Below are positions 6,425-63,177 of a DNA stretch of 64,000 nucleotides, piece after piece. The translations under genes and the position numbers were made by a program. The notes under the pieces are model-generated. The model was not told where the DNA came from and made no database searches. It saw only the letters and a program-made list of their open reading frames with translations. Origin of the DNA: Pedobacter lusitanus (GTDB lineage Bacteria; Bacteroidota; Bacteroidia; Sphingobacteriales; Sphingobacteriaceae); contig NZ_CP157278.1 of the NCBI RefSeq assembly GCF_040026395.1, forward strand, positions 1,922,001-1,986,000, in the 5' to 3' direction. The first letter of the stretch is position 1. Each line of letters starts with the position of its first letter.

Positions 6425-6931
6425 CTATTGAGCGCTGAGTACATCAATGGTAAAATCAAGATTTGAATTTGGAGGAAATGGATAACCAGTAGCATTTCCA
6501 TAGCCTAAACCAGAAGGCATAATCAATCTGATTCTGCCACCTGGCTGAATCAAAGGAATACCTACCTGCCAGCCCCGGATCAGAGAGCCTAAAGATTTAA
6601 AAGTCACTGCAGTGCCTTTACTTGAATCAAATACAGTTCCGTCCAGTAAACTTCCTGTATAATTTACAGTAAGAGAAGTACTACCTGAATAGTTCACACT
6701 TCCTGTTCCCGGAGTTATAATCTGATAAAACAAACCAGTTTTCTCATCCTTAAGGGCAGGAATATTTTTTGCTTTCACATAAGCTCTGATTGCAACGGTG
6801 TCTTTGGTAAATTGAGCTGCAGCATCAAAGTTACCCTGATCTCCAGGATAATCATTATTATTCTTCATACAGGCTGTAAAGATAGTGGCCATACAAACCA
6901 GCAATAATACGAGGTGTTTAGTCTTCATCAT
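6425..6931 (-). CDS. FKBP-type peptidyl-prolyl cis-trans isomerase, lipoprotein
   Basis: Catalyses proline isomerisation and helps folding of exported proteins, probably anchored in a membrane facing the periplasm. The N-terminus is a lipoprotein signal, MMKTKHLVLLLVCMATIFTAC, with a lipobox (TAC) and Cys about residue 21. The C-terminal half is an FKBP domain: LTVNYTGSLLDGTVFDSS, then LIRGWQVGIPLIQPGGRIRLIMPSGLGYG and a final NLDFTIDVLSAQ strand, which carry the usual active-site Tyr, Phe-Asp, Trp and Tyr positions. An upstream TTG at 6940 is possible, but the ATG at 6931 or 6928 fits the signal peptide better. The gene stands alone, followed by a strong hairpin. Confidence 0.88.
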   Translation of the reverse strand: MMKTKHLVLLLVCMATIFTACMKNNNDYPGDQGNFDAAAQFTKDTVAIRAYVKAKNIPALKDEKTGLFYQIITPGTGSVNYSGSTSLTVNYTGSLLDGTVFDSSKGTAVTFKSLGSLIRGWQVGIPLIQPGGRIRLIMPSGLGYGNATGYPFPPNSNLDFTIDVLSAQ

Positions 6932-9743: not shown

Positions 9744-10715
9744 TTAAAATCCGGCCACAGTTTTATAGATTGTGCGTACGCTTGAAACAATAACCAGTAC
9801 GCCAACCGCAATCAGTATGGATTTTGTATTCAGTTTTCCGGCAAACTTTGCCGCAATCGGCGCAGCGATTAAACCGCCGATAATTAAACCGGCAATAGTT
9901 TGAATATGGCTGGTACCCAGGATTACAAAAAATGTAAGTGCACTTGCCAGTGTAACAAAAAACTCAGTGAGACTGACTGTACCAATGATATAACGGGGTG
10001 TTTTACCTTTGGCAATTAAAGTACTGGTCACCAGTGGACCCCATCCACCACCTCCGAAAGAGTCCAGAAAACCTCCGGCACCGGCAAGCCAGCCTGCATG
10101 TTTTACTTTTCTGGATTCGTTTTTTTTCCTGAAAGCGTTCAGCAATATCCGCAGTCCGAGAAACAAAGTATAAACAGATAAAACAGGCCGCAACCAGCTG
10201 CCATAGGATTCTCCCAGATAAGCCAGCAGCGCCGCTCCGATTACCGCCCCCAGAACTCCGGGCAATAATAAGGTCTTAAAGAGTTTCTTATTGATATTAC
10301 CAAACTTGTAATGACTAAAACCGGAAGCTCCGCTGGAAAACATTTCGGCAGTATGAATACTTCCGCTGATCGCTGCTGGATTAAGTCCTGTAGAGAGCAA
10401 TACCGTTGTAGAGATTACCCCATAGCCCATGCCCAGTGCTCCGTCTACCATCTGTGCAACGAAACCCGCAAGGAGCATCCAGCCAAATGCTGCATCCAGA
10501 TCAAGTGTCTTACCAAAAGCTTTGAAAGCATCAATCAGATTAATCAAAGGATAAAATGACGCTATGAGATGACCAATAATCATAAAAGCCAGTGCAAACA
10601 AACATCTGCCGGCTATTCTTTTCCAGTATTTTCCATTACGGATGATCCGGTTTTCTGCAGGCAGGGCTACACTGTCTTTTTCTGATAATTGATTTTCTAC
10701 GGGATATGTTGACAT
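9744..10715 (-). CDS. Sulfite exporter TauE/SafE family permease
   Basis: A polytopic inner-membrane protein of 323 residues with about eight hydrophobic segments in two repeats. The first repeat has GFVAQMVDGALGMGYGVISTTVLL and the second has AGAGGFLDSFGGGGWGPLVTS, the duplicated Gly-rich TauE signature. Family members move sulfite, sulfoacetate or other small anions. The N-terminal 35 residues are cytosolic and charged. The gene diverges from the SusC gene at 10993 across a 277-bp region with three related TAGACTA boxes, so the two may be co-regulated and concern sulfur or an organic anion; that link is inference. Confidence 0.85.
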   Translation of the reverse strand: MSTYPVENQLSEKDSVALPAENRIIRNGKYWKRIAGRCLFALAFMIIGHLIASFYPLINLIDAFKAFGKTLDLDAAFGWMLLAGFVAQMVDGALGMGYGVISTTVLLSTGLNPAAISGSIHTAEMFSSGASGFSHYKFGNINKKLFKTLLLPGVLGAVIGAALLAYLGESYGSWLRPVLSVYTLFLGLRILLNAFRKKNESRKVKHAGWLAGAGGFLDSFGGGGWGPLVTSTLIAKGKTPRYIIGTVSLTEFFVTLASALTFFVILGTSHIQTIAGLIIGGLIAAPIAAKFAGKLNTKSILIAVGVLVIVSSVRTIYKTVAGF

Positions 10716-10992: not shown

Positions 10993-13839
10993 ATGATTAA
11001 ATTTTTTACCACGTTAGGACTATCTATGATCCTTTGCTCAGCTATACAGGCACAGATCATCAAAGGTACAGTATATGATCAAAGTACCAGAGAAACCATT
11101 GTAGGAGCCAGTATCTCGGTTAAGGAGCATCCCGGAAAAGGTGTAATGGCAGACGCACAAGGCAGGTTTTCTTTACAACTGCAATCAGGAGAAACACTTA
11201 TAGTTAAAATGATTGGCTATAAACAATTTCAGAAACAGTATACTGCTGTTAAAGATGGTCAGCAAATTAACGTTTCACTGGAACCGGGTGTTGAACTTCA
11301 AGAAGTTATGGTTACTGCCAGTTTAGCCAATTCAAGAAGTAAAAAAGCAATCGGAACCAACATAGACCATATCAATGCCGCTGCCGTCGTAGCTACAAGT
11401 AACCCATCTTCACTGGCAGATATTGTCAACGGAAGAATCAGCGGTGCACAGGTTTACAATACCAATGGAAAGGTAGGTATGCCAATTCGTTTCGACATCC
11501 GTTCTTCTGCTACTTTCAGTATGGAACGTGATCCACTGATTTTTATAGATGGAGTACGTTATGGCAATAGCAATACTTCGGACATTAACTCTTCGCAGGA
11601 GGCCATGAGCGCACTGAACGATTTGCCTTTAAATGATATTGAATCTATTGATGTCATCAAAGGCCCGGCTGCTGCTGCTTCTTATGGTGCTGAAGCTGCA
11701 AACGGTGTGGTTGTGATCCAGACCAAACGTGGCCTGAATGGAAAGAAAGGGATTGCTGTCAATGTAAAATATACAGCGGGTTTTAGCGAACTGGCCAGAA
11801 AATATGATCAGTTTGTCAATAATGATCCTTTGAATGATTTTTTCAGAAAAGGAACAGAACAGCAGTTATACGCCAATATCACCTCACAGATTGACCAGAA
11901 TAACAGCATTTTCTTTTCAGCCAATACCAACAAAAATGCAGGTATAGTTCCGGGAAACCAGGATAACAGACAGACTGTTCGTACGGGCTATGATTTTGTT
12001 AAAGACCGTTTTAAATTATCACTCACCGCTGGTTATGTAAAAGGGAAACTGAGTATTCCTCAATCTGCTTCGGGACGGGATGATGCGATCTGGAACCTGA
12101 TGCGTGACCGTACCCCATGGCCGTTTATCGCTGAAGAAAGCTGGCGTGCTATTCAGAAAGAGTATGAAAATGACCGTTTTACCGGGAGCTTAAAATTGGC
12201 TTATACCTTCCCTTTTGAGATTAAAGCAGAAAGTTTGGTAGGTCTGGATCTTAACCGTATTGACGGTTTAAACTATCTTCCCTATGGCTTTTTACAGGGT
12301 ACCAATAATACAGGAAGCAAACAGGTAAGTAATCGTCGTAACCAGAATATGAACTGGGATTTTAAGTTATCCCGCAATTTCGTTTTCAATCCGAAATGGC
12401 AGTTAAATCTTTCCTTCCTTTCTCAGCTTACACAGGCTTCTGAAAAAGTTACAGGAATCAGTGTTCGTAATTTCGCTGTTCCGGGTATCAGTAACATAGC
12501 TTCCGCAGCAGAAATATTGGGGACAACTGATAATACTTTTGAAAAACGTACACATGGTCTTTATGGAGAAGCTTTTTTGAGTTATGATAACAAGTTATTT
12601 ATCAATGCAGGGCTAAGACGTGATGTTTCCAACATGATTGGAAGAAATGTAGCCAGTATCTGGTATCCGACTGTAAGTGTGGCCTACAACGTAGCCGGCA
12701 TGGACTTTCTGAAAGGAAAAGTAGAAGAATGGAAATTCAGAGCTGCTTATGGAGAATCAGGTCGTTTACCTTATCCTGGTGATGCGCAAACTGCCTATCT
12801 GGTGGAGAATTCTTCATTTGGAACTATAGTAAAACCTTTAAGGAAAGGAAACCCGGATATTAAACCAGAAAGAACCGGAGAATTTGAGATCGGAACTGAC
12901 ATCAAAATATTTGATCAGAAACTGAGCTTTACTTATTACAGACAGAATACCCGTGATGCCATTGTATATACTACGCTGTTACCATCTCTGGGCTGGCCAT
13001 CCACTTTAAGTGGTGATTACCCGGAGAATATCGGAAAGATACAGGGTCAGGGTCTGGAAATCTCTTATAACAGCAGAGTATTTACCAGCGCCAATAAAAA
13101 ACATAGCCTGGATATCTATGCAATCTTCAATCAGCAGTCTAACAAAGTAATCAACTCTGGTGGTAAAGATATCCTGAGTTCAGTGAATCTGATCCGTGCG
13201 GGCTTACCAGCATTTGCTTTCTATTCCAATCTTTCTGAAGGACCGGTATTTGATGCCAAAGGCGTTTATACAGGTGCAAAAGAAGGCCCGCTGCAGGAAT
13301 TGGGTAAACCTTTCCCTACTTATAACGGTTCTGTTGGTTTTGGTCTGCAGCTGTTTAACAACTTACGTTTACAATCCCTTTTCACTTATTCTAAAGGTGC
13401 AAAAGTTTATAATATATCAGCCAGAAACGTAGCCTCACAGGGTAATAACTACGAAGCCAAAGAAACGTTAAAGACTCAGCTGGCTGCACTTACTCCTGGT
13501 ACAGCGGATTATATTTCTACCGCTACAGCCTTATCAAAAGTTGACGGGGTAAGAGGTGATTTTATACAAAAAGCAGACTTTATCAGACTGAGCAATTTAA
13601 CCTTGTCTTATGATCTGGGTGACTGGGCAAAAAAATATACCAAAGGTGTGCTGAAACGCTGTTTAGTATCCATAACAGGAAATAACCTGTGGCTGACCAC
13701 GAATTACGGCGGTGCTGAACCTCAGATTGACTCACAAGGCGGCAGTAAAAGAACCAAAGGTATCAGCTATCTGTCTTCGGATTGGACAGCTGTTCCTGCA
13801 CCGCGCACTTATGCGTTTAGTTTAAATATTGGATTTTAA
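10993..13839 (+). CDS. SusC/RagA-type TonB-dependent outer-membrane receptor
   Basis: A 948-residue outer-membrane transporter. A signal peptide ends at IQAQ (residue 21), followed by a carboxypeptidase-like beta-sandwich domain (IIKGTVYDQSTRETIVGASI). The plug then carries NGRISGAQVYN and DPLIFIDGVRYG, with IESIDVIKGPAAAASYGAEAANGVV, the classic SusC plug end. The remainder is a beta barrel ending in APRTYAFSLNIGF with a terminal Phe, as needed for BAM insertion. It is paired with the SusD-like gene 34 bp downstream, then DoxX and a flavoreductase, not with any polysaccharide enzyme. That argues for a non-glycan cargo such as an iron complex, but this is inference. Confidence 0.92.
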   Translation: MIKFFTTLGLSMILCSAIQAQIIKGTVYDQSTRETIVGASISVKEHPGKGVMADAQGRFSLQLQSGETLIVKMIGYKQFQKQYTAVKDGQQINVSLEPGVELQEVMVTASLANSRSKKAIGTNIDHINAAAVVATSNPSSLADIVNGRISGAQVYNTNGKVGMPIRFDIRSSATFSMERDPLIFIDGVRYGNSNTSDINSSQEAMSALNDLPLNDIESIDVIKGPAAAASYGAEAANGVVVIQTKRGLNGKKGIAVNVKYTAGFSELARKYDQFVNNDPLNDFFRKGTEQQLYANITSQIDQNNSIFFSANTNKNAGIVPGNQDNRQTVRTGYDFVKDRFKLSLTAGYVKGKLSIPQSASGRDDAIWNLMRDRTPWPFIAEESWRAIQKEYENDRFTGSLKLAYTFPFEIKAESLVGLDLNRIDGLNYLPYGFLQGTNNTGSKQVSNRRNQNMNWDFKLSRNFVFNPKWQLNLSFLSQLTQASEKVTGISVRNFAVPGISNIASAAEILGTTDNTFEKRTHGLYGEAFLSYDNKLFINAGLRRDVSNMIGRNVASIWYPTVSVAYNVAGMDFLKGKVEEWKFRAAYGESGRLPYPGDAQTAYLVENSSFGTIVKPLRKGNPDIKPERTGEFEIGTDIKIFDQKLSFTYYRQNTRDAIVYTTLLPSLGWPSTLSGDYPENIGKIQGQGLEISYNSRVFTSANKKHSLDIYAIFNQQSNKVINSGGKDILSSVNLIRAGLPAFAFYSNLSEGPVFDAKGVYTGAKEGPLQELGKPFPTYNGSVGFGLQLFNNLRLQSLFTYSKGAKVYNISARNVASQGNNYEAKETLKTQLAALTPGTADYISTATALSKVDGVRGDFIQKADFIRLSNLTLSYDLGDWAKKYTKGVLKRCLVSITGNNLWLTTNYGGAEPQIDSQGGSKRTKGISYLSSDWTAVPAPRTYAFSLNIGF

Positions 13840-53395: not shown

Positions 53396-53561
53396 TTCCT
53401 ATGGTATTAAACTAATGGTAAAATGAGCGCAAAGCAGCTGTAAAATCTGCTGCTATTCTAAATTCCAACAAAAATGTAAACTTATATCCACTTCAACTAT
53501 TAATTGAAGAAATAATTTTAAATATTTCAGGAACTGATTCGCGCAGAAGCTGAAGGATGAA

Positions 53562-53703
53562 AAGGGTTCAAAAAGCCTGTTAAAACGGCATTAAAGGGAC
53601 ATTGAGAGGGGGTTGGAAGGACCAAAGTCCTTTCAAGGTCCTTCCAACGTCCTTCCAACCCCCTTTCAATGTCCTTTCAACAGGCTTTTTGAGCCCTTGA
53701 AAG
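53562..53703. repeat. Inverted array of degenerate 11-bp repeats
   Basis: Seven units of 11 bp stand in tandem at 53627-53703 (for example GTCCTTTCAAG, GTCCTTCCAAC twice, CCCCTTTCAAT, GTCCTTTCAAC). The left side, 53562-53622, is made of the same units in inverted orientation and pairs with the right side apart from one extra unit. Hairpins of some 45-50 bp could form. It is in the 583-bp gap between the permease and the precursor gene; the rest of that gap shows no gene I can support. Confidence 0.75.
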
Positions 53704-53978
53704 CCCCTTGTTTAGCGCCGAACCCAACCTTGCTGAATTATGCCAGGAATTATATGATCTACTGATATAAATTCTATGTTATTTTTTAAATAAGCATTGG
53801 ATACAATACAGTAATTGATGTATATTGCCAGGGAGTTAACTATAACTCGTTTATACTTAAGATAAATTAATGACGATGAAACCATCGTGCGCAGCAAAAA
53901 ACCAACTGAAACCTGCCGGCAAATGATAGCTTCATCTCCATTAAAAAATAAACACTACGAAAAAACAATTATTTACTG

Positions 53979-54188
53979 ATGAAAAATAACCTTAGACCAA
54001 ACGGAACCCTTTTTTTAGGAAAAAAAACTATTGTGAAACTTAATGCCAGAAATACGAGCTCAAACAGCGGTGAAGCGGGTATGAATTTCAGGGATGACAA
54101 ACCAACTACAGGAACAACTAACCAGACACTGGGAACCACTGATATGGATCCTACTACTATAATAGCATCCATCATACTTTCTTTCTAA
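53979..54188 (+). CDS. Putative class-I-lanthipeptide-like precursor peptide, cysteine-free
   Basis: A 69-residue peptide. Residues 11-22 (LFLGKKTIVKLN) match the leader element L-x-L-x-K-K-T-I-x-x-L-N known from Bacteroidota class I lanthipeptide precursors. The rest, rich in Ser and Thr (15 after residue 25, with T-T pairs at 43-44, 46-47, 53-54 and 59-60), would be the modified core; it ends IIASIILSF. There is no Cys anywhere, so lanthionine rings cannot form from this peptide alone. No double-Gly leader-cleavage site is clear. The sensor kinase starts one base after its stop codon and a full LanB follows, which makes the precursor call credible despite its short length. Confidence 0.68.
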   Translation: MKNNLRPNGTLFLGKKTIVKLNARNTSSNSGEAGMNFRDDKPTTGTTNQTLGTTDMDPTTIIASIILSF

Positions 54189-55202
54189 TTGATCAACAGA
54201 TTTAAGAGCAACGTCGTATTAATTAATATCCTTTGCTGGACGCTCTATATAGCGTACGGCATAGGAATAACTTATCTGACCTTTCCTGCCACTTTTCATC
54301 TGGGCGATCTTTTGATTGGCCATACCATGGCAGTCGGGTTATTCTATTACTTTGCTTTTTTAGTTATACCGGCTTTATCAAAGAAGAAAAAAATTGCGCT
54401 TGGTATTCTGTACATGATTATCTGTTTTACCCTGTTCTGTTTTTTCAGATACATTTCCAAAGGGGTTAAAGACATTCATCTGCTGCTCAGTCCAACGCAA
54501 TCATTTTTTAAAGTTCCTTTTATTCATTTCTGCATTTTTGTATTCTTCGAATATTTCATCTATGCACTTGGATACTGGTTCGCTATAGACAGTATAAAAA
54601 AAGCAAAAAACATTAAGTTACTTGAACAGCAAAAGGTAGAAATAGAAAATCAGTTTTTAAAAGAACAGCTAAGTCCGCATTTCCTTTATAACACCTTAAG
54701 TTATTTCTATACCAAGATTTTCAAAGTAAACCCTGAAGTGGCAGATGGTATCATTACGCTGACTGATATTTTAAGATATACGTTAAAAATGGATACTGAA
54801 AAGGTCCGGTTATCATTAGAAGTGGAACATATTGAGAATCTGATTAAGATCAACAATATCAGGTTCAATAACAGACTGAATGTTGTCTTTACCAAAGAAT
54901 ATGAAGAGGAAGATCATTTTCAGATTGTACCGCATTCATTAATTACACTGGTAGAGAATGCCTTTAAATATGGTGATCTCCTGGATAAAGATAATCCAAT
55001 CAGATTTACGATGAAGGCTGATCATTCGGGAATATTCTTCAGTGTACAAAACAAAAAAAACACGGCTCCAAAGGCTTCTTCAAATGGAACGGGACTTAAA
55101 AATCTTCGCAGAAGGATGGATTTTCTATACCATGATAAGTATACCTTAGATGTACAGGATCAGCACAACTGGTACTCTGCTGAACTTTATATCAGAAGTT
55201 AA
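54189..55202 (+). CDS. LytS/YehU-type sensor histidine kinase
   Basis: A 337-residue membrane kinase of the His_kinase (PF06580) type. It has about four hydrophobic segments in residues 1-150 (for example VVLINILCWTLYIAYGIGITYL and GLFYYFAFLVIPAL), then a coiled linker, the phospho-acceptor motif LSPHFLYNTLSYF, and the ATPase part with VPHSLITLVENAFKYGD and NGTGLKNLRRRMDFLY. The start is a TTG that directly follows the TAA of the precursor gene; no nearer ATG would preserve the first membrane helix. Kinases of this type usually pair with a LytTR response regulator, and none is in the window. Its position inside the peptide locus suggests that it senses the peptide or the envelope. Confidence 0.85.
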   Translation: MINRFKSNVVLINILCWTLYIAYGIGITYLTFPATFHLGDLLIGHTMAVGLFYYFAFLVIPALSKKKKIALGILYMIICFTLFCFFRYISKGVKDIHLLLSPTQSFFKVPFIHFCIFVFFEYFIYALGYWFAIDSIKKAKNIKLLEQQKVEIENQFLKEQLSPHFLYNTLSYFYTKIFKVNPEVADGIITLTDILRYTLKMDTEKVRLSLEVEHIENLIKINNIRFNNRLNVVFTKEYEEEDHFQIVPHSLITLVENAFKYGDLLDKDNPIRFTMKADHSGIFFSVQNKKNTAPKASSNGTGLKNLRRRMDFLYHDKYTLDVQDQHNWYSAELYIRS

Positions 55203-55269
55203 CCATACGATTTGTTCAAACTGGACTCAAAGACCTATTAACCGGTTACATCTTACAGATTATAAACAT

Positions 55270-55280
55270 GGAGGGAGGAA
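55270..55280 (+). promoter_or_regulatory. Strong Shine-Dalgarno-like site before LanB
   Basis: GGAGGGAGGAA, ending 6 bp before the LanB ATG. This is unusual here, as most genes in the window have no clear ribosome binding site. Confidence 0.5.
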
Positions 55281-55286
55281 TACTAT

Positions 55287-58200
55287 ATGAAAAGTGAGCA
55301 AAAAAATTTCCCTTACCTGTTTCACCCCGGTTTAATACTGCGCACTCCGCATTATGCTTTTAAGAGTGATTATAAAGCTGAAGATATCAGCTTATTTTTA
55401 AATAATGACGCTTTTCTTGAAGCGGTTTATCTGGCTTCTCCTGTACTATTCAGAGAATGCCAGAAGCTAAAGAATGGAGAAATCAGCGGCAAAAAGGATA
55501 TAGTCCGGATCACAAATTCTTTACTCAGATACCTGAGCAGAATGAGCTCGCGCTCCACTCCTTTTGGTCTGTTTTCAGGTTGTTCGCTGATTAACTGGGC
55601 CCGCCAAAAAACCAGCGTAACCATCGCTCAGCATACATTTAGCCGTCATACCAGGCTGGATATGCATTATCTTTGTGCCTTAGCTCAAAAAATAGCAGGT
55701 CATCCTGCGATCAGACCAGAGCTAAAATACTTCCCGAATACCAGCATTTATACCATAGCTGATGAAATCAGATATGTTGAATATCATTATTTAAATAACA
55801 AAAGATCACACCAGATCAGTGCGGTATTTAATTCAGCTTATCTTACAAAGATTATCAGTTTTAGTCAGACAGGCAGAATGCTGCATGATATTGCTGATTT
55901 AATCACTGACGAAAATATCAGCGCTGAAGAAGCCTTACGTTTTACCGGAGAACTGATTGACTCGCAGATACTGGTTAGTGAACTTGAGCCGGCAATTACC
56001 GGTCATGAATTTATCTATCAGATACTGGATACGCTTCAAAGGATCAGGACAAACACCGGGGATGAATACCTGATTAAGGTCATTGAAATTTTAACGGCAA
56101 TAGAACAGCGCTTAAAAGACCTTGACCAGCATTTGTATAATCCGCATTCCTGTTATCAGGAAATTATCGGGCTGATTAAGCTACTGGATGTGGAATTTGA
56201 GGAAGCGTTGCTTTTCCAGACAGATATGAGCCGCAAGCTGCCCGCAGGAAAAATGGATCTTGCCATACAGGAAAGTCTTGCTGAATCCTTCTGGTTGTTA
56301 AATTGTCTGTATCCGGAAAATAAACAGGATAATCTTTCCTCCTTTGCGCAAAGGTATTACACACGTTATGAAGATAAAGCCATGCCCCTGCTGGAAGTAA
56401 TGGATGCCGAAACAGGACTGGGCTATCTGGAAAACCGCAGCCATAATGTCTCGCCTTTAATTGATGATCTGATTCTGCCTGATCAAGGACATAAGGGAAC
56501 AAATCAGATCAGTTTCAACAGGACTTCCAGACTTCTTTTTGATAAGGTCAGCGAGGCATTGGTGAAACAGGTTAATGAAGTTTTGTTCACAGAAGAAGAT
56601 TTTAAAGACTTTTCCCCGCAATGGGATGATACCCCGCCTTCAGTTTCAGCCCTGTTCAGATTAGTGGACGAGGCCGAAAACACGATTCTTTTAGAAAACA
56701 TCAGTGGTTCCAGTGCAGCAAACCTGCTGGGCAGATTTACGCATATCGATAAAGATATTCATGAACTGGTTAAGGAAATAGCTCTTGCCGAACAGCAGAC
56801 CAATCCGGACGTTATATTTGCAGAAATCATTCATCTGCCTGAAAGCAGACTGGGGAATATTTTACTTCATACTGTATTCAGAGACCACGAAATACCTTAT
56901 TTAGGGAAGTCTTCCCTCGGCGCAGATGAGCGGATTAATTCCAGCGATCTGATGATAGCCGTAAAAAACGGTAAGATTATACTGTATTCAAAAAAACTGG
57001 ATAAAGAGATTATTCCGCGCTTAAGTACTGCGCATAATTTTAGCTCCAAAGCTTTACCGGTATATCAGTTTCTTTGTGATCTGCAAACCCGCGATCTGAG
57101 ATCAGGTTTCAGATTTAACTGGGGTAGCCTGGCCAGCCAACATACCTTTCTGCCAAGAGCGAAGTACAAAAATATTATACTCACGCCGGCACAGTGGCAG
57201 TTCAGAAAAGAGGAATTGAAAGCACTGCTGACCGCAACAGACGAAAATCTGCCGGACGTTATTGCGGCATTCAGAAAGCAATGGGCCTTGCCGAGATATC
57301 TTGTCCTGGCTGATGGCGATAATGAGCTTTTAATCGATCTGGACAACAGGTTTATGATACCAAGCTGGTTAAAAACGATCAGAAACAGACCACTGGTTCT
57401 GCTGAAGGAATTTTTATATGATCCGGCATCTTCCATAGCCAGCCCGGAAGGTAAGCCTTTTATCAATCAGCTGATAGCCTCACTGATCAAGTCGGCTCCT
57501 GTTTATGCGCTTCCTCTTCATCAGCAGCTCAAAGCGAATGTTACTGGGAAAATAATCAGAACATTTACCCCAGGTTCCGGCTGGGTATACTATAAATGGT
57601 ACTGCGGCGCGGTATACGGTGATAAAATACTGGAAGAGTACCTTACTCCTCTGGTTGATGAGCTGAAAGAAACGGGCGTGATTAATCAGTGGTTTTTTAT
57701 CCGTTATACTGATCCTCAGTTCCATTTGAGGGTAAGATTTCAGCTGACTAATGTTAACCTGATCGGCACCTGTCTGAACAAAGTCAGCAGCTATATGGCT
57801 GATCTGGAATTAAACGGTGTGATCTGGAAATCTCAGATTGATTCTTATCGGCGTGAAATGGAACGTTATGGTGAAAATGGAATTGAATATGCAGAATCCA
57901 TTTTTCATGCAGACAGTACTGCCCAGCTCAATTTCTTATCGCTTACCGGTGCAGATGACAGAGAAGATAAACGCTGGATCTGGGGTATGAAAGCTGCGGA
58001 CAGGCTGCTGGACGATTTCGCGCTTTCGCTGCAACAGAAAAGCAGCTTAATGGGTATTATCAGGGAGAGTTTTGCCATAGAGTTTGGGGTAGACAAATTT
58101 GTAAAGACCCAGATTAATAAAAAATATGCCGATCATAGAAATATAATTACCCGGATTCTGGATAAATCTCAGGATCCGATACCGGAATATGATCAGCTGG

Positions 58201-58430
58201 TCGCACTCCTGGAATTCAGATCGCAGGAAATCAGTGCTCTTGTACCCGGGATATTAAATGCAGCGGGACTGGACAATATTCAGCTGGAAAATCTTTTAAG
58301 CTCTTATCTGCACATGATGCTGAACCGGCTATTTATTGCTGATGCGAGAACAAATGAGATGATGATATATCATCTGCTGGATCGTTATTATCAATCGGTA
58401 ATCGCACAGACAAAAAATTCAGCTTCCTGA
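55287..58430 (+). CDS. Full-length LanB-type lantibiotic dehydratase
   Basis: A 1047-residue protein with both LanB regions. Residues about 1-700 form the glutamylation domain: LFHPGLILRTPHYAF at the start and SLLRYLSRMSSRSTPFGLFSGCSL, which carries the conserved Arg and S-R-x-T-P-x-G-L-F. Residues about 740-1035 form the elimination (thiopeptide-type) domain: GSGWVYYKWYCGAVYGDKIL, INQWFFIRYTDPQFHLRVRFQL, then the later IWKSQIDSYRREMERYGENGIEYAESIFHADS and a C-terminal HMMLNRLF. In known members, Ser and Thr of a leader-bearing peptide are glutamylated from glutamyl-tRNA and then eliminated to dehydro residues. No LanC is nearby. It is preceded by a strong GGAGG site. Confidence 0.93.
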   Translation: MKSEQKNFPYLFHPGLILRTPHYAFKSDYKAEDISLFLNNDAFLEAVYLASPVLFRECQKLKNGEISGKKDIVRITNSLLRYLSRMSSRSTPFGLFSGCSLINWARQKTSVTIAQHTFSRHTRLDMHYLCALAQKIAGHPAIRPELKYFPNTSIYTIADEIRYVEYHYLNNKRSHQISAVFNSAYLTKIISFSQTGRMLHDIADLITDENISAEEALRFTGELIDSQILVSELEPAITGHEFIYQILDTLQRIRTNTGDEYLIKVIEILTAIEQRLKDLDQHLYNPHSCYQEIIGLIKLLDVEFEEALLFQTDMSRKLPAGKMDLAIQESLAESFWLLNCLYPENKQDNLSSFAQRYYTRYEDKAMPLLEVMDAETGLGYLENRSHNVSPLIDDLILPDQGHKGTNQISFNRTSRLLFDKVSEALVKQVNEVLFTEEDFKDFSPQWDDTPPSVSALFRLVDEAENTILLENISGSSAANLLGRFTHIDKDIHELVKEIALAEQQTNPDVIFAEIIHLPESRLGNILLHTVFRDHEIPYLGKSSLGADERINSSDLMIAVKNGKIILYSKKLDKEIIPRLSTAHNFSSKALPVYQFLCDLQTRDLRSGFRFNWGSLASQHTFLPRAKYKNIILTPAQWQFRKEELKALLTATDENLPDVIAAFRKQWALPRYLVLADGDNELLIDLDNRFMIPSWLKTIRNRPLVLLKEFLYDPASSIASPEGKPFINQLIASLIKSAPVYALPLHQQLKANVTGKIIRTFTPGSGWVYYKWYCGAVYGDKILEEYLTPLVDELKETGVINQWFFIRYTDPQFHLRVRFQLTNVNLIGTCLNKVSSYMADLELNGVIWKSQIDSYRREMERYGENGIEYAESIFHADSTAQLNFLSLTGADDREDKRWIWGMKAADRLLDDFALSLQQKSSLMGIIRESFAIEFGVDKFVKTQINKKYADHRNIITRILDKSQDPIPEYDQLVALLEFRSQEISALVPGILNAAGLDNIQLENLLSSYLHMMLNRLFIADARTNEMMIYHLLDRYYQSVIAQTKNSAS

Positions 58431-58530
58431 AATATTTTTAAGCCGGAACCGGAATGAACAGCTGATTGTCGAAAAGAAATTAATATCTTGAGCTGTCATT
58501 TCTGACGACCCATTCTAATCCGACATTTAA

Positions 58531-60709: not shown

Positions 60710-60747
60710 CTGATCAGGACTATTTTTACGGGAATAGTTCTGATCAG
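60710..60747. terminator. Terminator between the small RHH-like gene and the convergent kinase
   Basis: CTGATCAGGACTATT (60710-60724) and AATAGTTCTGATCAG (60733-60747) form a 15-bp stem with one mismatch and an 8-nt loop. The right arm covers the stop codon of the hybrid kinase. Confidence 0.7.
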
Positions 60748-63095
60748 GATCTCCAGGAAAGATACTGTGCTATTTTTGTATAGAGCTCTGTCGGGTTAAA
60801 GGGCTTGGAAATATAATCGTTCATCCCTGCGTCCAGGACTTTTCTGTTGATCTCTGCCAGCACAGATGCTGTCAGTGCAATAATGGGTAATTCTTTAAAT
60901 CTTTTCCCGGGCAGATCCCTGATTGCCCTGCTGGCTGCATAACCATCCATTCTGGGCATCTGTAAATCCATTAAAACCAGGTCGTATTCATTTTCTGTTA
61001 CTTTTTCAAGTGCTTCAATTCCATCGGCAGCATAATCAATATCCAGATCCCATCTTCTCATAAATTTGCTGGCCACTATAGTATTGATCTCATTGTCTTC
61101 CACGAGCAATACCTTGTATCCTCCAAGACTGGCAAAAACATGGGCAGGCATCGCATTTACAGACCCTTCTTTTTTATTCTCTTTCCTGAACTTCAGATCG
61201 AAATAGAAACTGGAACCTTTACCCAGGGTACTTTGTAAACTAATTTCGCTGCCCTGTAACTCCACCAGTCTTTTGGTGATGGCCAGCCCCAGTCCTGTTC
61301 CGCCAAAACGCCTCGAGGTATCGGGAGCTGCCTGCGTAAAACTCTCAAAGATATACTCTTTCAAATCAGGATCGATTCCAATGCCAGTATCTGTAACCAT
61401 GAAGTTAACCTCAACGGTATCTCCTTCTATTTTCTTCAATGACAGATCTACCACGACAGAGCCTTCATTGGTAAATTTCAAAGCATTGCTCACCAGGTTA
61501 TTCAGAATTTGTGTTAACCTAACCGGATCTCCTACCAGAACTGAAGGAAGTTCTGAGTCTATTTTCACCTTAAAAATAAGACCTTTTCCTTCTGCCTGTA
61601 AGTTATGAGCTTGTTTGATACGGTTGACAAGCTCTATGAGGTTAAATTCTATATCTTCAAATACTATCTTTCCCAGTTCAATTTTACTATAATCGAGTAT
61701 ATCATTGATCAGCGATAATAAACTTTCACTGGAGAACTTCAGGATGTTTAAGTTTTCAAGCTGTTCAGGTTTAGGATCTTCCTGCAGCAATAAATGAGTC
61801 ATACCGATTACTGCATTCATGGGTGTTCTGATTTCATGACTCATATTAGAAAGAAACTGCTGTTTGGCCATAGCAGCATCTTCTGCTATTTCTTTTGCTT
61901 TCAACAATTCTATTTCAGCTAATTTACGATCAGAAATATCGAGTACCGCGCCCATCACTTTCACCGTTTTACCATCTTTTACGATAGGAATACCTATACT
62001 CCTGAGCCATTTATCTTCCCTCGCTGCTCTAAGCTCCAGGTTATAGGATTTCTGAAATTTAATGGCATTTCTTATTCCCTCTTTTATAGCCTCTGCATCA
62101 ACTTCCCGATAAAAAGAAACTGCCTTTTCCAGCGTAGTTATCTCATCCGGAACACCGGATAACAATTTCAGAAATCTTGTTCTGTAAACAGCTCCTGTAC
62201 TCACTTCATATTCCCATCCGCCTGCTTTACTAATGCGCTGACTGGTATCCAGCAGATCTACGGTCCGTTCTAATTCATCCTGTGCCTTTCTGAGTTCTTC
62301 CTCAGCCATTTCCTGCTGAGTGATATCGAGTGCAAAACCAATCAGACAACTCTCCTGTTCAGGACTTGGAAAGAAATTATTCTGATAAACCAGTTTCCGG
62401 CCGTCTACCTCAAAAGTGGAAATGAACTGTCCGTGTTTGCCGCATAACCCATTGCACAGCATGTCCGCAGCTGAAGAAAAAACTTCAATAGAGTTTTGTC
62501 CTACCAGCCCATTATCCTGCAAACCCAGGGCCTTTAAGCCTGAGCCAATGGACCTGGTAAATATTCCTGCAGCATCGGTCTCATAAATAATAACAGGAAG
62601 ATTTTCCAGTACTCCATTTAAAAGCCTGCTTTTTTCTTCAAATTCTTTTTGTAATTGTACCCTTTCTGAAATATCCTGACAGAATACGGTCATCCCGTTT
62701 ACCAGACCTTCTTTATCATACATTGGATTACAGATCATACTGAATGAGGCTCTGTATAATTCAGGGTCACCAAATTCTTCAATCAGCTCGACAGTCTCTC
62801 CGGTCATGACTCTCCGGAATATTTCTGCTGTCTTTTCTCCGTCCATCCCTCCGTTCAGCTTTGCAATCTCCAGATAATTATCACCTATCTTAAGATCCAC
62901 CCCTCTGCCCATCTTAACGGTTTGCTGATGGGATTGATTAAAAGCGATATAATTAAAGTTTTTATCGAAAGCAAAAATACTGGCACTGGTGCTTTCCAGA
63001 ACAGTTTGCAGAATAGCAATCTCTCCCAAAAGCATTTCCCGGTCTTTATTGCCGTCTCCGGTATTCACCTGATTAATTCCTTTTAGATACTCCAT
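60744..63095 (-). CDS. PAS-domain hybrid sensor histidine kinase
   Basis: A cytosolic signalling protein of 783 residues; the ATG at 63095 is preferred to the TTG at 63110. Three PAS-type segments are visible at residues about 25-145, 155-265 and 280-390 (for example the SERVQLQKEFEEKS and ALDITQQEMAEEEL linkers). The kinase core has FLSNMSHEIRTPMNAVIGMTHLL (His420), NNLVSNALKFTNEGSVVVD, GIGIDPDLKEYIFESF and GGTGLGLAITKRLVE. The receiver has VLLVEDNEINTIVASKF, YDLVLMDLQMPRMDG (Asp710) and the Lys in MNDYISKPFNPTELY. There is no output domain, so phosphate must go to another protein. No membrane segment is seen. Confidence 0.93.
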   Translation of the reverse strand: MEYLKGINQVNTGDGNKDREMLLGEIAILQTVLESTSASIFAFDKNFNYIAFNQSHQQTVKMGRGVDLKIGDNYLEIAKLNGGMDGEKTAEIFRRVMTGETVELIEEFGDPELYRASFSMICNPMYDKEGLVNGMTVFCQDISERVQLQKEFEEKSRLLNGVLENLPVIIYETDAAGIFTRSIGSGLKALGLQDNGLVGQNSIEVFSSAADMLCNGLCGKHGQFISTFEVDGRKLVYQNNFFPSPEQESCLIGFALDITQQEMAEEELRKAQDELERTVDLLDTSQRISKAGGWEYEVSTGAVYRTRFLKLLSGVPDEITTLEKAVSFYREVDAEAIKEGIRNAIKFQKSYNLELRAAREDKWLRSIGIPIVKDGKTVKVMGAVLDISDRKLAEIELLKAKEIAEDAAMAKQQFLSNMSHEIRTPMNAVIGMTHLLLQEDPKPEQLENLNILKFSSESLLSLINDILDYSKIELGKIVFEDIEFNLIELVNRIKQAHNLQAEGKGLIFKVKIDSELPSVLVGDPVRLTQILNNLVSNALKFTNEGSVVVDLSLKKIEGDTVEVNFMVTDTGIGIDPDLKEYIFESFTQAAPDTSRRFGGTGLGLAITKRLVELQGSEISLQSTLGKGSSFYFDLKFRKENKKEGSVNAMPAHVFASLGGYKVLLVEDNEINTIVASKFMRRWDLDIDYAADGIEALEKVTENEYDLVLMDLQMPRMDGYAASRAIRDLPGKRFKELPIIALTASVLAEINRKVLDAGMNDYISKPFNPTELYTKIAQYLSWRS

Positions 63096-63177
63096 GTATA
63101 TTGATAACAAAATTTCAGCTAATTCGTTTTCTTAACAATTTATAAGCCAAAATCTTAGCAGATTCAACAAATCATTT

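Follow-up and report, generated by a model that had tools for sequence, protein, structure and literature searches.

In autoinduction of the NisK/NisR type, the peptide is made by a LanB dehydratase and the sensor kinase is encoded beside the LanB substrate. For Bacteroidota, the excerpted text of the lanthipeptide survey of Walker et al. 2020 (PMC7268733) names the pinensins as the only lanthipeptides isolated from the phylum and gives LxLxKx5L as the leader motif of Bacteroidetes class I precursors. According to the same excerpts, the survey used LanC as bait and discarded Cys-free ORFs, so that loci of the kind described here would have been missed by its design. In partial texts of other sources, Marsh 2010 (PMC3091789) mentions LanBs of Spirosoma and Microscilla that lie apart from LanC, LanB was not found in Bacteroidales by a survey of that order (PMC10352776), and a review (PMC12328550) cites work on Pedobacter lusitanus. 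Among the literature matches listed, judged by title and the start of the abstract, none treated LanC-less, kinase-linked LanB loci of Bacteroidota; the P. lusitanus papers Caetano 2020 and Bothwell 2021 lay outside this scope. In this work we have investigated a cassette of three genes, a precursor, a LytS-type kinase and a LanB, in a window of 64,000 nucleotides (G000:C1:1,922,001-1,986,000) of a P. lusitanus genome which consists of a single contig of 6.05 Mb. The reading to which we give an even chance is that LanB makes a ring-free dehydropeptide, and that this is sensed by the neighbouring, co-inherited kinase acting through an unlinked LytTR regulator.

The earlier note on this DNA had described the first gene as a small Thr/Ser-rich precursor with a LanB leader motif, followed directly by a LytS-type kinase and then by a two-domain LanB of 1047 residues, and all three descriptions hold. 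The precursor ORF (53979..54188, plus strand) has an ATG start and encodes 69 residues. It was read as an ORF, and its match to the leader model NF038153 (lant_leader_L1a) is below threshold, 17.7 bits against a cut-off of 22. Residues 11-21, LFLGKKTIVKL (54009..54041, plus strand), are an exact match to the LxLxKx5L motif known from the Walker excerpts (PMC7268733), as expected for the leader of a Bacteroidetes LanB substrate. Of the 298 small ORFs of the window no other has the exact motif near its start (the first 45 residues); shuffling the precursor sequence reproduced it in 15 of 20,000 trials. Downstream of the motif there are 10 Thr and 5 Ser residues and no Cys, a point on which the earlier note was silent, and the precursor has no GG site. 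Lanthionines are thus impossible from the peptide's own residues, and it lacks the core of Cys plus Ser/Thr which defines a class I lanthipeptide. As a single-sequence query it matched itself and no other homologue. A profile of 17 precursors which included it matched 24 database proteins at E <=0.001, the window precursor among them, and those which bear a name from their source are annotated as hypothetical or uncharacterized. The NF038153 model recognized 8 of the 17 at E <=0.1, and the window precursor scored best. At the level of sequence the short leader motif is the only link between this peptide and other precursors; we consider the precursor probably genuine.

The kinase gene (54189..55202, plus strand) starts with TTG at the base right after the TAA of the precursor, in the same frame and with 0 bases between them. 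Its product of 337 residues matches PF06580 with 64.9 bits (cut-off 25.2) and so has the kinase domain of a LytS/LytTR two-component system; H164, N257 and G302 are invariant across 26 aligned kinases. The structural model (pLDDT 83.4, pTM 0.57) begins with four long helices, 7-31, 38-64, 66-92 and from 111 onward, and the N-terminal helices are taken as membrane helices from their hydrophobicity. After a gap of 84 bases comes the full-length LanB (55287..58430, plus strand), in which both Pfam domains are nearly complete: PF04738 covers residues 40-689 with 473 bits and PF14028 residues 766-1035 with 227 bits. The protein therefore has both the glutamylation and the elimination domain of a class I enzyme, and R85, R89, T91, D125, R815, R817, R860 and H1009 are invariant in 40 aligned LanBs. 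The best Foldseek matches of its model (mean pLDDT 87, pTM 0.82) are MadB, MibB and NisB, with E from 3e-55 to 7e-45, on a loose superposition (TM-score ~0.6, rmsd near 19). Small LanBs without an elimination domain are known as PEARLs, peptide aminoacyl-tRNA ligases; such an enzyme is ruled out here by the presence of PF14028.

The borders of the cassette were located by comparison with a congener. When 20 relatives were searched for a close EamA gene, only one (G006, 84% complete) had it, flanked as in the window by the same amino-acid permease and EamA genes at 79% and 73% DNA identity. In blastn of the window against this syntenic site (L204) the homology ends at 53524 and restarts at 58477; the segment 53525..58476 is missing there together with all three cassette genes (0/3 present), and a different ORF of 224 residues stands in its place. 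As this genome has both flanks without the cassette, the permease and EamA genes are not cassette members, and the cassette appears to have been gained here rather than lost in the congener. The segment holds no further gene of size and no exporter or protease gene. Its GC content (0.401) marks no border against the flanks (0.398 and 0.395) or the window (0.405). Shuffles gave more promoter-like matches than the real sequence (15.6 versus 9) and fewer terminator-like ones (4.1 versus 8), and neither type was used as evidence. A palindrome of 163 bases (53550..53712), which is a REP- or MITE-like dispersed repeat with 7 sites in the genome, lies close to the left border of the segment; the DNA fold of 53540-53720 has -51.3 kcal/mol (z -8.9). 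It plays no part in the function that we propose.

That neither LanC nor a response regulator accompanies the cassette within the window, as had been stated before, is borne out by two approaches which agree. None of the LanC-like or LytTR genes of the genome is located in the window, and tblastn of the window with 76 LanC-like proteins gave 0 matches. LanB-linked regulators gave 28, all around 32 and 61 kb, which are either distant from the cassette or within an ORF at 60744-63110 that by eye resembles a hybrid kinase. A remnant of LanC or of a regulator inside the window was accordingly rejected. The cassette thus lacks the LanC expected within a class I cluster, and the closest LanC belongs to a separate one. 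The view that nothing of the kind exists nearby has to be corrected, since a complete class I cluster on the opposite strand, with HlyD, C39-ABC, LanB, LanC and a GG precursor (G000:1,986,254-1,993,610; L020 3255-10611), begins with its HlyD gene only 254 bp beyond the window end. Could the cassette be a satellite of this cluster, borrowing its LanC and C39 exporter? The neighbouring LanC is only 11.7 kb from the end of the cassette LanB and its zinc triad, CCH, is intact, but the window precursor offers neither a Cys to cyclise nor a GG site, whereas the neighbour has its own LanB and its own GG precursor with three Cys. Five other genomes also contain the neighbouring cluster (L079, L080, L082, L083 and L085), with no second LanB beside it in the 19-kb stretches of these loci, and it therefore looks self-contained; in L083 a weakly matching kinase and regulator lie near the edge of the stretch. 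We consider the satellite explanation very improbable, and sharing of LanC and exporter with the neighbour was rejected as the main reading. A search for LanC elsewhere in the genome, which the earlier note had proposed, was productive: besides 7 LanB loci there are four LanC-like genes, two of them with an intact triad. After the cassette and L025 (described below), L026 (8438-13490) is a third locus of the genome whose LanB has no LanC; beside this LanB lie a kinase, a regulator and, at 13236-13490, a small ORF.

The link between kinase and dehydratase suggested earlier extends well beyond this cassette. A LytS kinase lies within 6 kb of LanB in 5 of the 7 LanB loci of the genome, which would arise by chance with a probability of about 1e-5. 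When the window kinase was compared with its own genome, the other four kinases linked to a LanB all ranked within the top 6 of 20 matches. In a LanB tree of 90 rows the window falls in a clade of 15 (support 98) with L058, L059, L063, L065, L066, L098, L099, L101-L103, L109-L111 and L113. The kinase tree (74 rows) places it in a clade of 19 (support 98/95) with largely the same loci, namely L058, L059, L063, L065, L066, L098, L099, L101, L102, L110, L111 and L113, plus L138. A supported main kinase clade of 42 rows contains 41 of the 55 LanB-linked kinases and one other kinase of the genome, the remaining 14 LanB-linked kinases lying outside; both trees have several long branches, flagged as such. 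Across 31 representative loci, the distances between LanBs correlate with those between kinases (rho 0.49, reached in 0 of 5000 permutations; rho 0.62 for the window alone). The set had been thinned from 46 loci, and L071, L072, L097, L114, L119, kinases of at least 520 residues and weak kinase matches were omitted. This correlation could stem from regulation or from shared descent of the loci. The locus, which had been thought to stand alone, is a member of a recurrent kinase-linked LanB set with related loci across Bacteroidota. Its exact gene order, sought in related genomes as the earlier note had advised, was not seen in those examined. A search of 119 genomes at E 1e-100 found 55 matches outside this genome; the collinear order precursor-kinase-LanB was found neither in the 40 same-genus stretches examined from these matches nor in the maps of a further set of 79 loci, almost all of them from Bacteroidota. 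When the search was broadened to 145 genomes of the genus, 11 of them matched at E 1e-190. Only one of these was new (G135), and its cluster is of the ordinary split-LanB kind, complete with a LanC and an exporter of its own. The order is unique so far among the relatives examined. Genes in these contexts were labelled by phmmer, with markers drawn from this genome and its relatives, and not by Pfam scans. In two of the related loci an S41-family peptidase, a candidate leader or signal protease, lies between precursor and kinase (L063 11412-12830 and L099 10423-11838).

The linkage of kinase and LanB fits equally well with another explanation, a dehydropeptide which serves as an antimicrobial or other effector and whose production the kinase merely regulates on an outside cue such as envelope stress, a competitor or a nutrient. 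The known roles of LanB products are mostly antimicrobial, clusters of this type are often under the control of a kinase, and the short hydrophobic C-terminus of the precursor could act on membranes. However, the segment has no further sizeable gene and thus no gene for immunity or export, and a kinase abutting the precursor in a cassette of three genes would be an economical arrangement for sensing the product. We regard the effector explanation as unlikely, if still a serious contender.

More questions are raised by the missing regulator. A LytTR gene lies within 3 kb of 21 of the 23 LytS kinases of the genome, and the window kinase is one of the two exceptions; it thus lacks the adjacent LytTR regulator of a typical LytS/LytTR system. 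Such isolation, together with the TTG start of the kinase, would also be expected of a decaying lanthipeptide locus which has lost LanC, regulator and exporter and of which only a remnant is left. Yet all three reading frames (3/3) are open, the conserved residues are retained, and relatives without LanC or without its zinc site recur across several LanB lineages, so we consider decay improbable. Where, then, could the regulator of a functional kinase be encoded? Of the 28 LytTR genes in the genome 7 are unpaired, and 5 of these entered a regulator tree of 77 rows, the other two being too short or too weak, along with 16 of the 17 regulators of the genome which are paired with other kinases. 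A clade of 39 rows (support 98/88) unites 36 LanB-linked regulators with three orphans of the genome, at 73,466-74,203, 3,713,052-3,713,804 and 1,516,096-1,516,830. None of the 16 regulators paired with other kinases falls within this clade, and 19 of the 55 LanB-linked regulators lie outside it. The orphan at 73,466-74,203 groups with those of L063, L065 and L066 (98/63, within a starred five-row set), three loci whose LanB and kinase sit in the clades of the window. By their position in the tree the three orphans are candidate regulators for the window kinase, and we claim no more for them. The suggestion that the partners are encoded elsewhere is therefore plausible for the response regulator and unnecessary for LanC. 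An orphan LytTR regulator was also seen in L181 (3467-7123), followed by the gene of an 802-residue protein, whose start is signal-like, and by a small ORF containing a GG site.

The alternative which the earlier note had placed beside this, a linear or otherwise modified dehydropeptide, agrees with the Cys-free precursor and with the state of LanC in several related loci, where it is missing or zinc-less. Two of the 14 genomes searched, P. cryoconitis Xaverov 94 (G046) and G111, both 99-100% complete, have one LanB and zero LanC, and the other 12 have at least one LanC. All eight Hymenobacter loci of the kinase-linked set (L104-L106, L115-L117, L120 and L124) have a LanC-like gene without an intact triad. 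In L115 this gene is at least 7 kb from the kinase, beyond LanB; a second LanC-like gene, its triad also not intact, lies upstream in L106, L116 and L117; and L124 has an intact LanC in another cluster. The triad is intact in L103, which has no kinase. The Hymenobacter precursors have 0 Cys in L105, L106, L116, L120 and L124 and 1 Cys in L104. Non-intact LanC beside LanB was also found in L068, L069, L024, L073, L074, L076-L078, L084, L086 and L060-L062; the replacements in the triad are varied in Hymenobacter, and one Pedobacter group has a fixed V-K-Y set. LanC-less loci are scattered over several LanB lineages, L075 being nested among LanC-bearing ones, and some have GG precursors and exporters (Flavobacterium L136, L140 and L141).

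A scan for precursors covered 123 loci, 66 of them with a LanC-like gene within 7 kb, and left out L114 and L119, which are copies of the G046 and G060 loci. The 97 candidates from LanC-bearing loci comprised 75 with at least three Cys, 13 with two, 5 with one and 4 with none, and the 46 from LanC-less loci comprised 12 with none, 26 with one, 1 with two and 7 with at least three. Many of these rows are tandem copies, those of L147 and L160 resemble chance ORFs, the seven 5-Cys rows of L097, which overlaps L071, belong to a LanC-bearing neighbour, and the GG flag of the scan also counts GA and GS. Precursors which the scan missed were found otherwise in L025, L026, L068, L069, L075, L095, L099, L106 and L116. 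Tandem arrays of four to nine LanB precursors were seen in L136 (444-1591), L141 and L070-L072, near-identical in Flavobacterium L136. L126 has a LanB for which matches to a kinase, LanC or transporter were absent, and next to it two small ORFs (10123-10577) which lack Cys and are almost identical. For 42 loci in which a precursor and a LanC-like gene occur together we tabulated by hand the state of the triad against the highest Cys count per locus. The triad was non-intact in 7 of 7 loci with a Cys-free precursor, five from Hymenobacter and two close ones from Pedobacter, and in 5 of the 35 others (Fisher 3e-5, uncorrected for relatedness). The table omits loci without a detected precursor, including L073, L074, L076-L078, L084, L086, L115 and L117, whose triads are non-intact. 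Where there were two LanC-like genes, the one nearest to LanB or precursor was used for L060, L061, L106, L116 and L124 and the intact one for L064, L093 and L150; L023, whose highest count is 2, was entered as 1, which alters no cell of the table. Non-intact LanC is paired with 1-3 Cys in L024, L060-L062 and L104, and in L023 the LanC is intact although one precursor is Cys-free. Given these exceptions, a strict tie between LanC state and Cys count was dropped. Exceptions apart, the table and the LanC-less or zinc-less loci across lineages suggest that the peptide side and the LanC side tend to lose ring-making jointly.

How might the cassette work? In the reading that we prefer, the tRNA-dependent LanB would dehydrate the Thr/Ser-rich part of the precursor by glutamylation and then elimination, and the dehydrated peptide, having no Cys, would remain free of lanthionine rings. 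Unlinked proteins would export and trim the product. The co-inherited LytS kinase would sense the modified peptide, perhaps as its signal, and would act through a non-adjacent LytTR regulator, most likely one of the three orphans. What we infer here is that the peptide is dehydrated and exported, which ligand the kinase binds and which regulator it uses; the kinase may sense something other than the peptide. A bolder proposal, possible though rather doubtful, is that of a Bacteroidota pheromone system in which a Cys-free, ring-free LanB peptide is the LytS ligand and LanC was lost or became zinc-less as a lanthipeptide turned into a signal. The cassette may represent an overlooked kind of modified-peptide signalling. 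If this is true, LanB dehydratases of Bacteroidota serve signalling by way of linear dehydropeptides, and the zinc-less LanC-like genes beside related LanBs offer a ready test of what a LanC-like protein does without its zinc site.

Compared with known systems, the cassette is like the class I clusters of Bacteroidota, the pinensins and the P. lusitanus peptides, in its LanB, its LxLxKx5L leader and the kinase and regulator often found nearby, but it has no precursor Cys, no LanC, no exporter and no GG site. The locus closest in gene order is found in the same genome: L025 (G000:2,472,001-2,476,925; L025 6002-10926), also without LanC, consists of a LytTR regulator, a leader-like small ORF, a LytS kinase and, directly downstream of the kinase, LanB. 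It differs in that the regulator is adjacent, the leader-like ORF (6745-6894), between regulator and kinase, is on the minus strand, opposite to the rest, and its LanB is distant, at only 24% identity to that of the window. The locus of P. cryoconitis Xaverov 94 (L058/L114) likewise combines LanB, kinase and precursor in a genome without LanC, but it has a regulator, its LanB is on the strand opposite the rest and its precursor has one Cys. The kinase-linked Hymenobacter loci L104, L105, L106, L116, L120 and L124 have LanB, a regulator and a kinase which are both on the minus strand, a precursor and a LanC-like gene. They share with the cassette a related LanB and kinase and precursors which, by eye, have no exporter-type GG leader end, five of the six being Cys-free and five of the six ending in a hydrophobic residue (not L116), whereas in these loci the adjacent regulator has been kept and so has a LanC-like gene, its triad not intact. 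An additional LanC-like gene and an ABC gene lie upstream in L106 and L116, and L105 has a GG elsewhere. The cassette resembles the NisK/NisR arrangement in having the kinase gene beside the LanB substrate, and sensing of the modified peptide is what we propose here by analogy; it departs from that arrangement in that the kinase is LytS-type, the regulator is not adjacent and the product would be without lanthionine.
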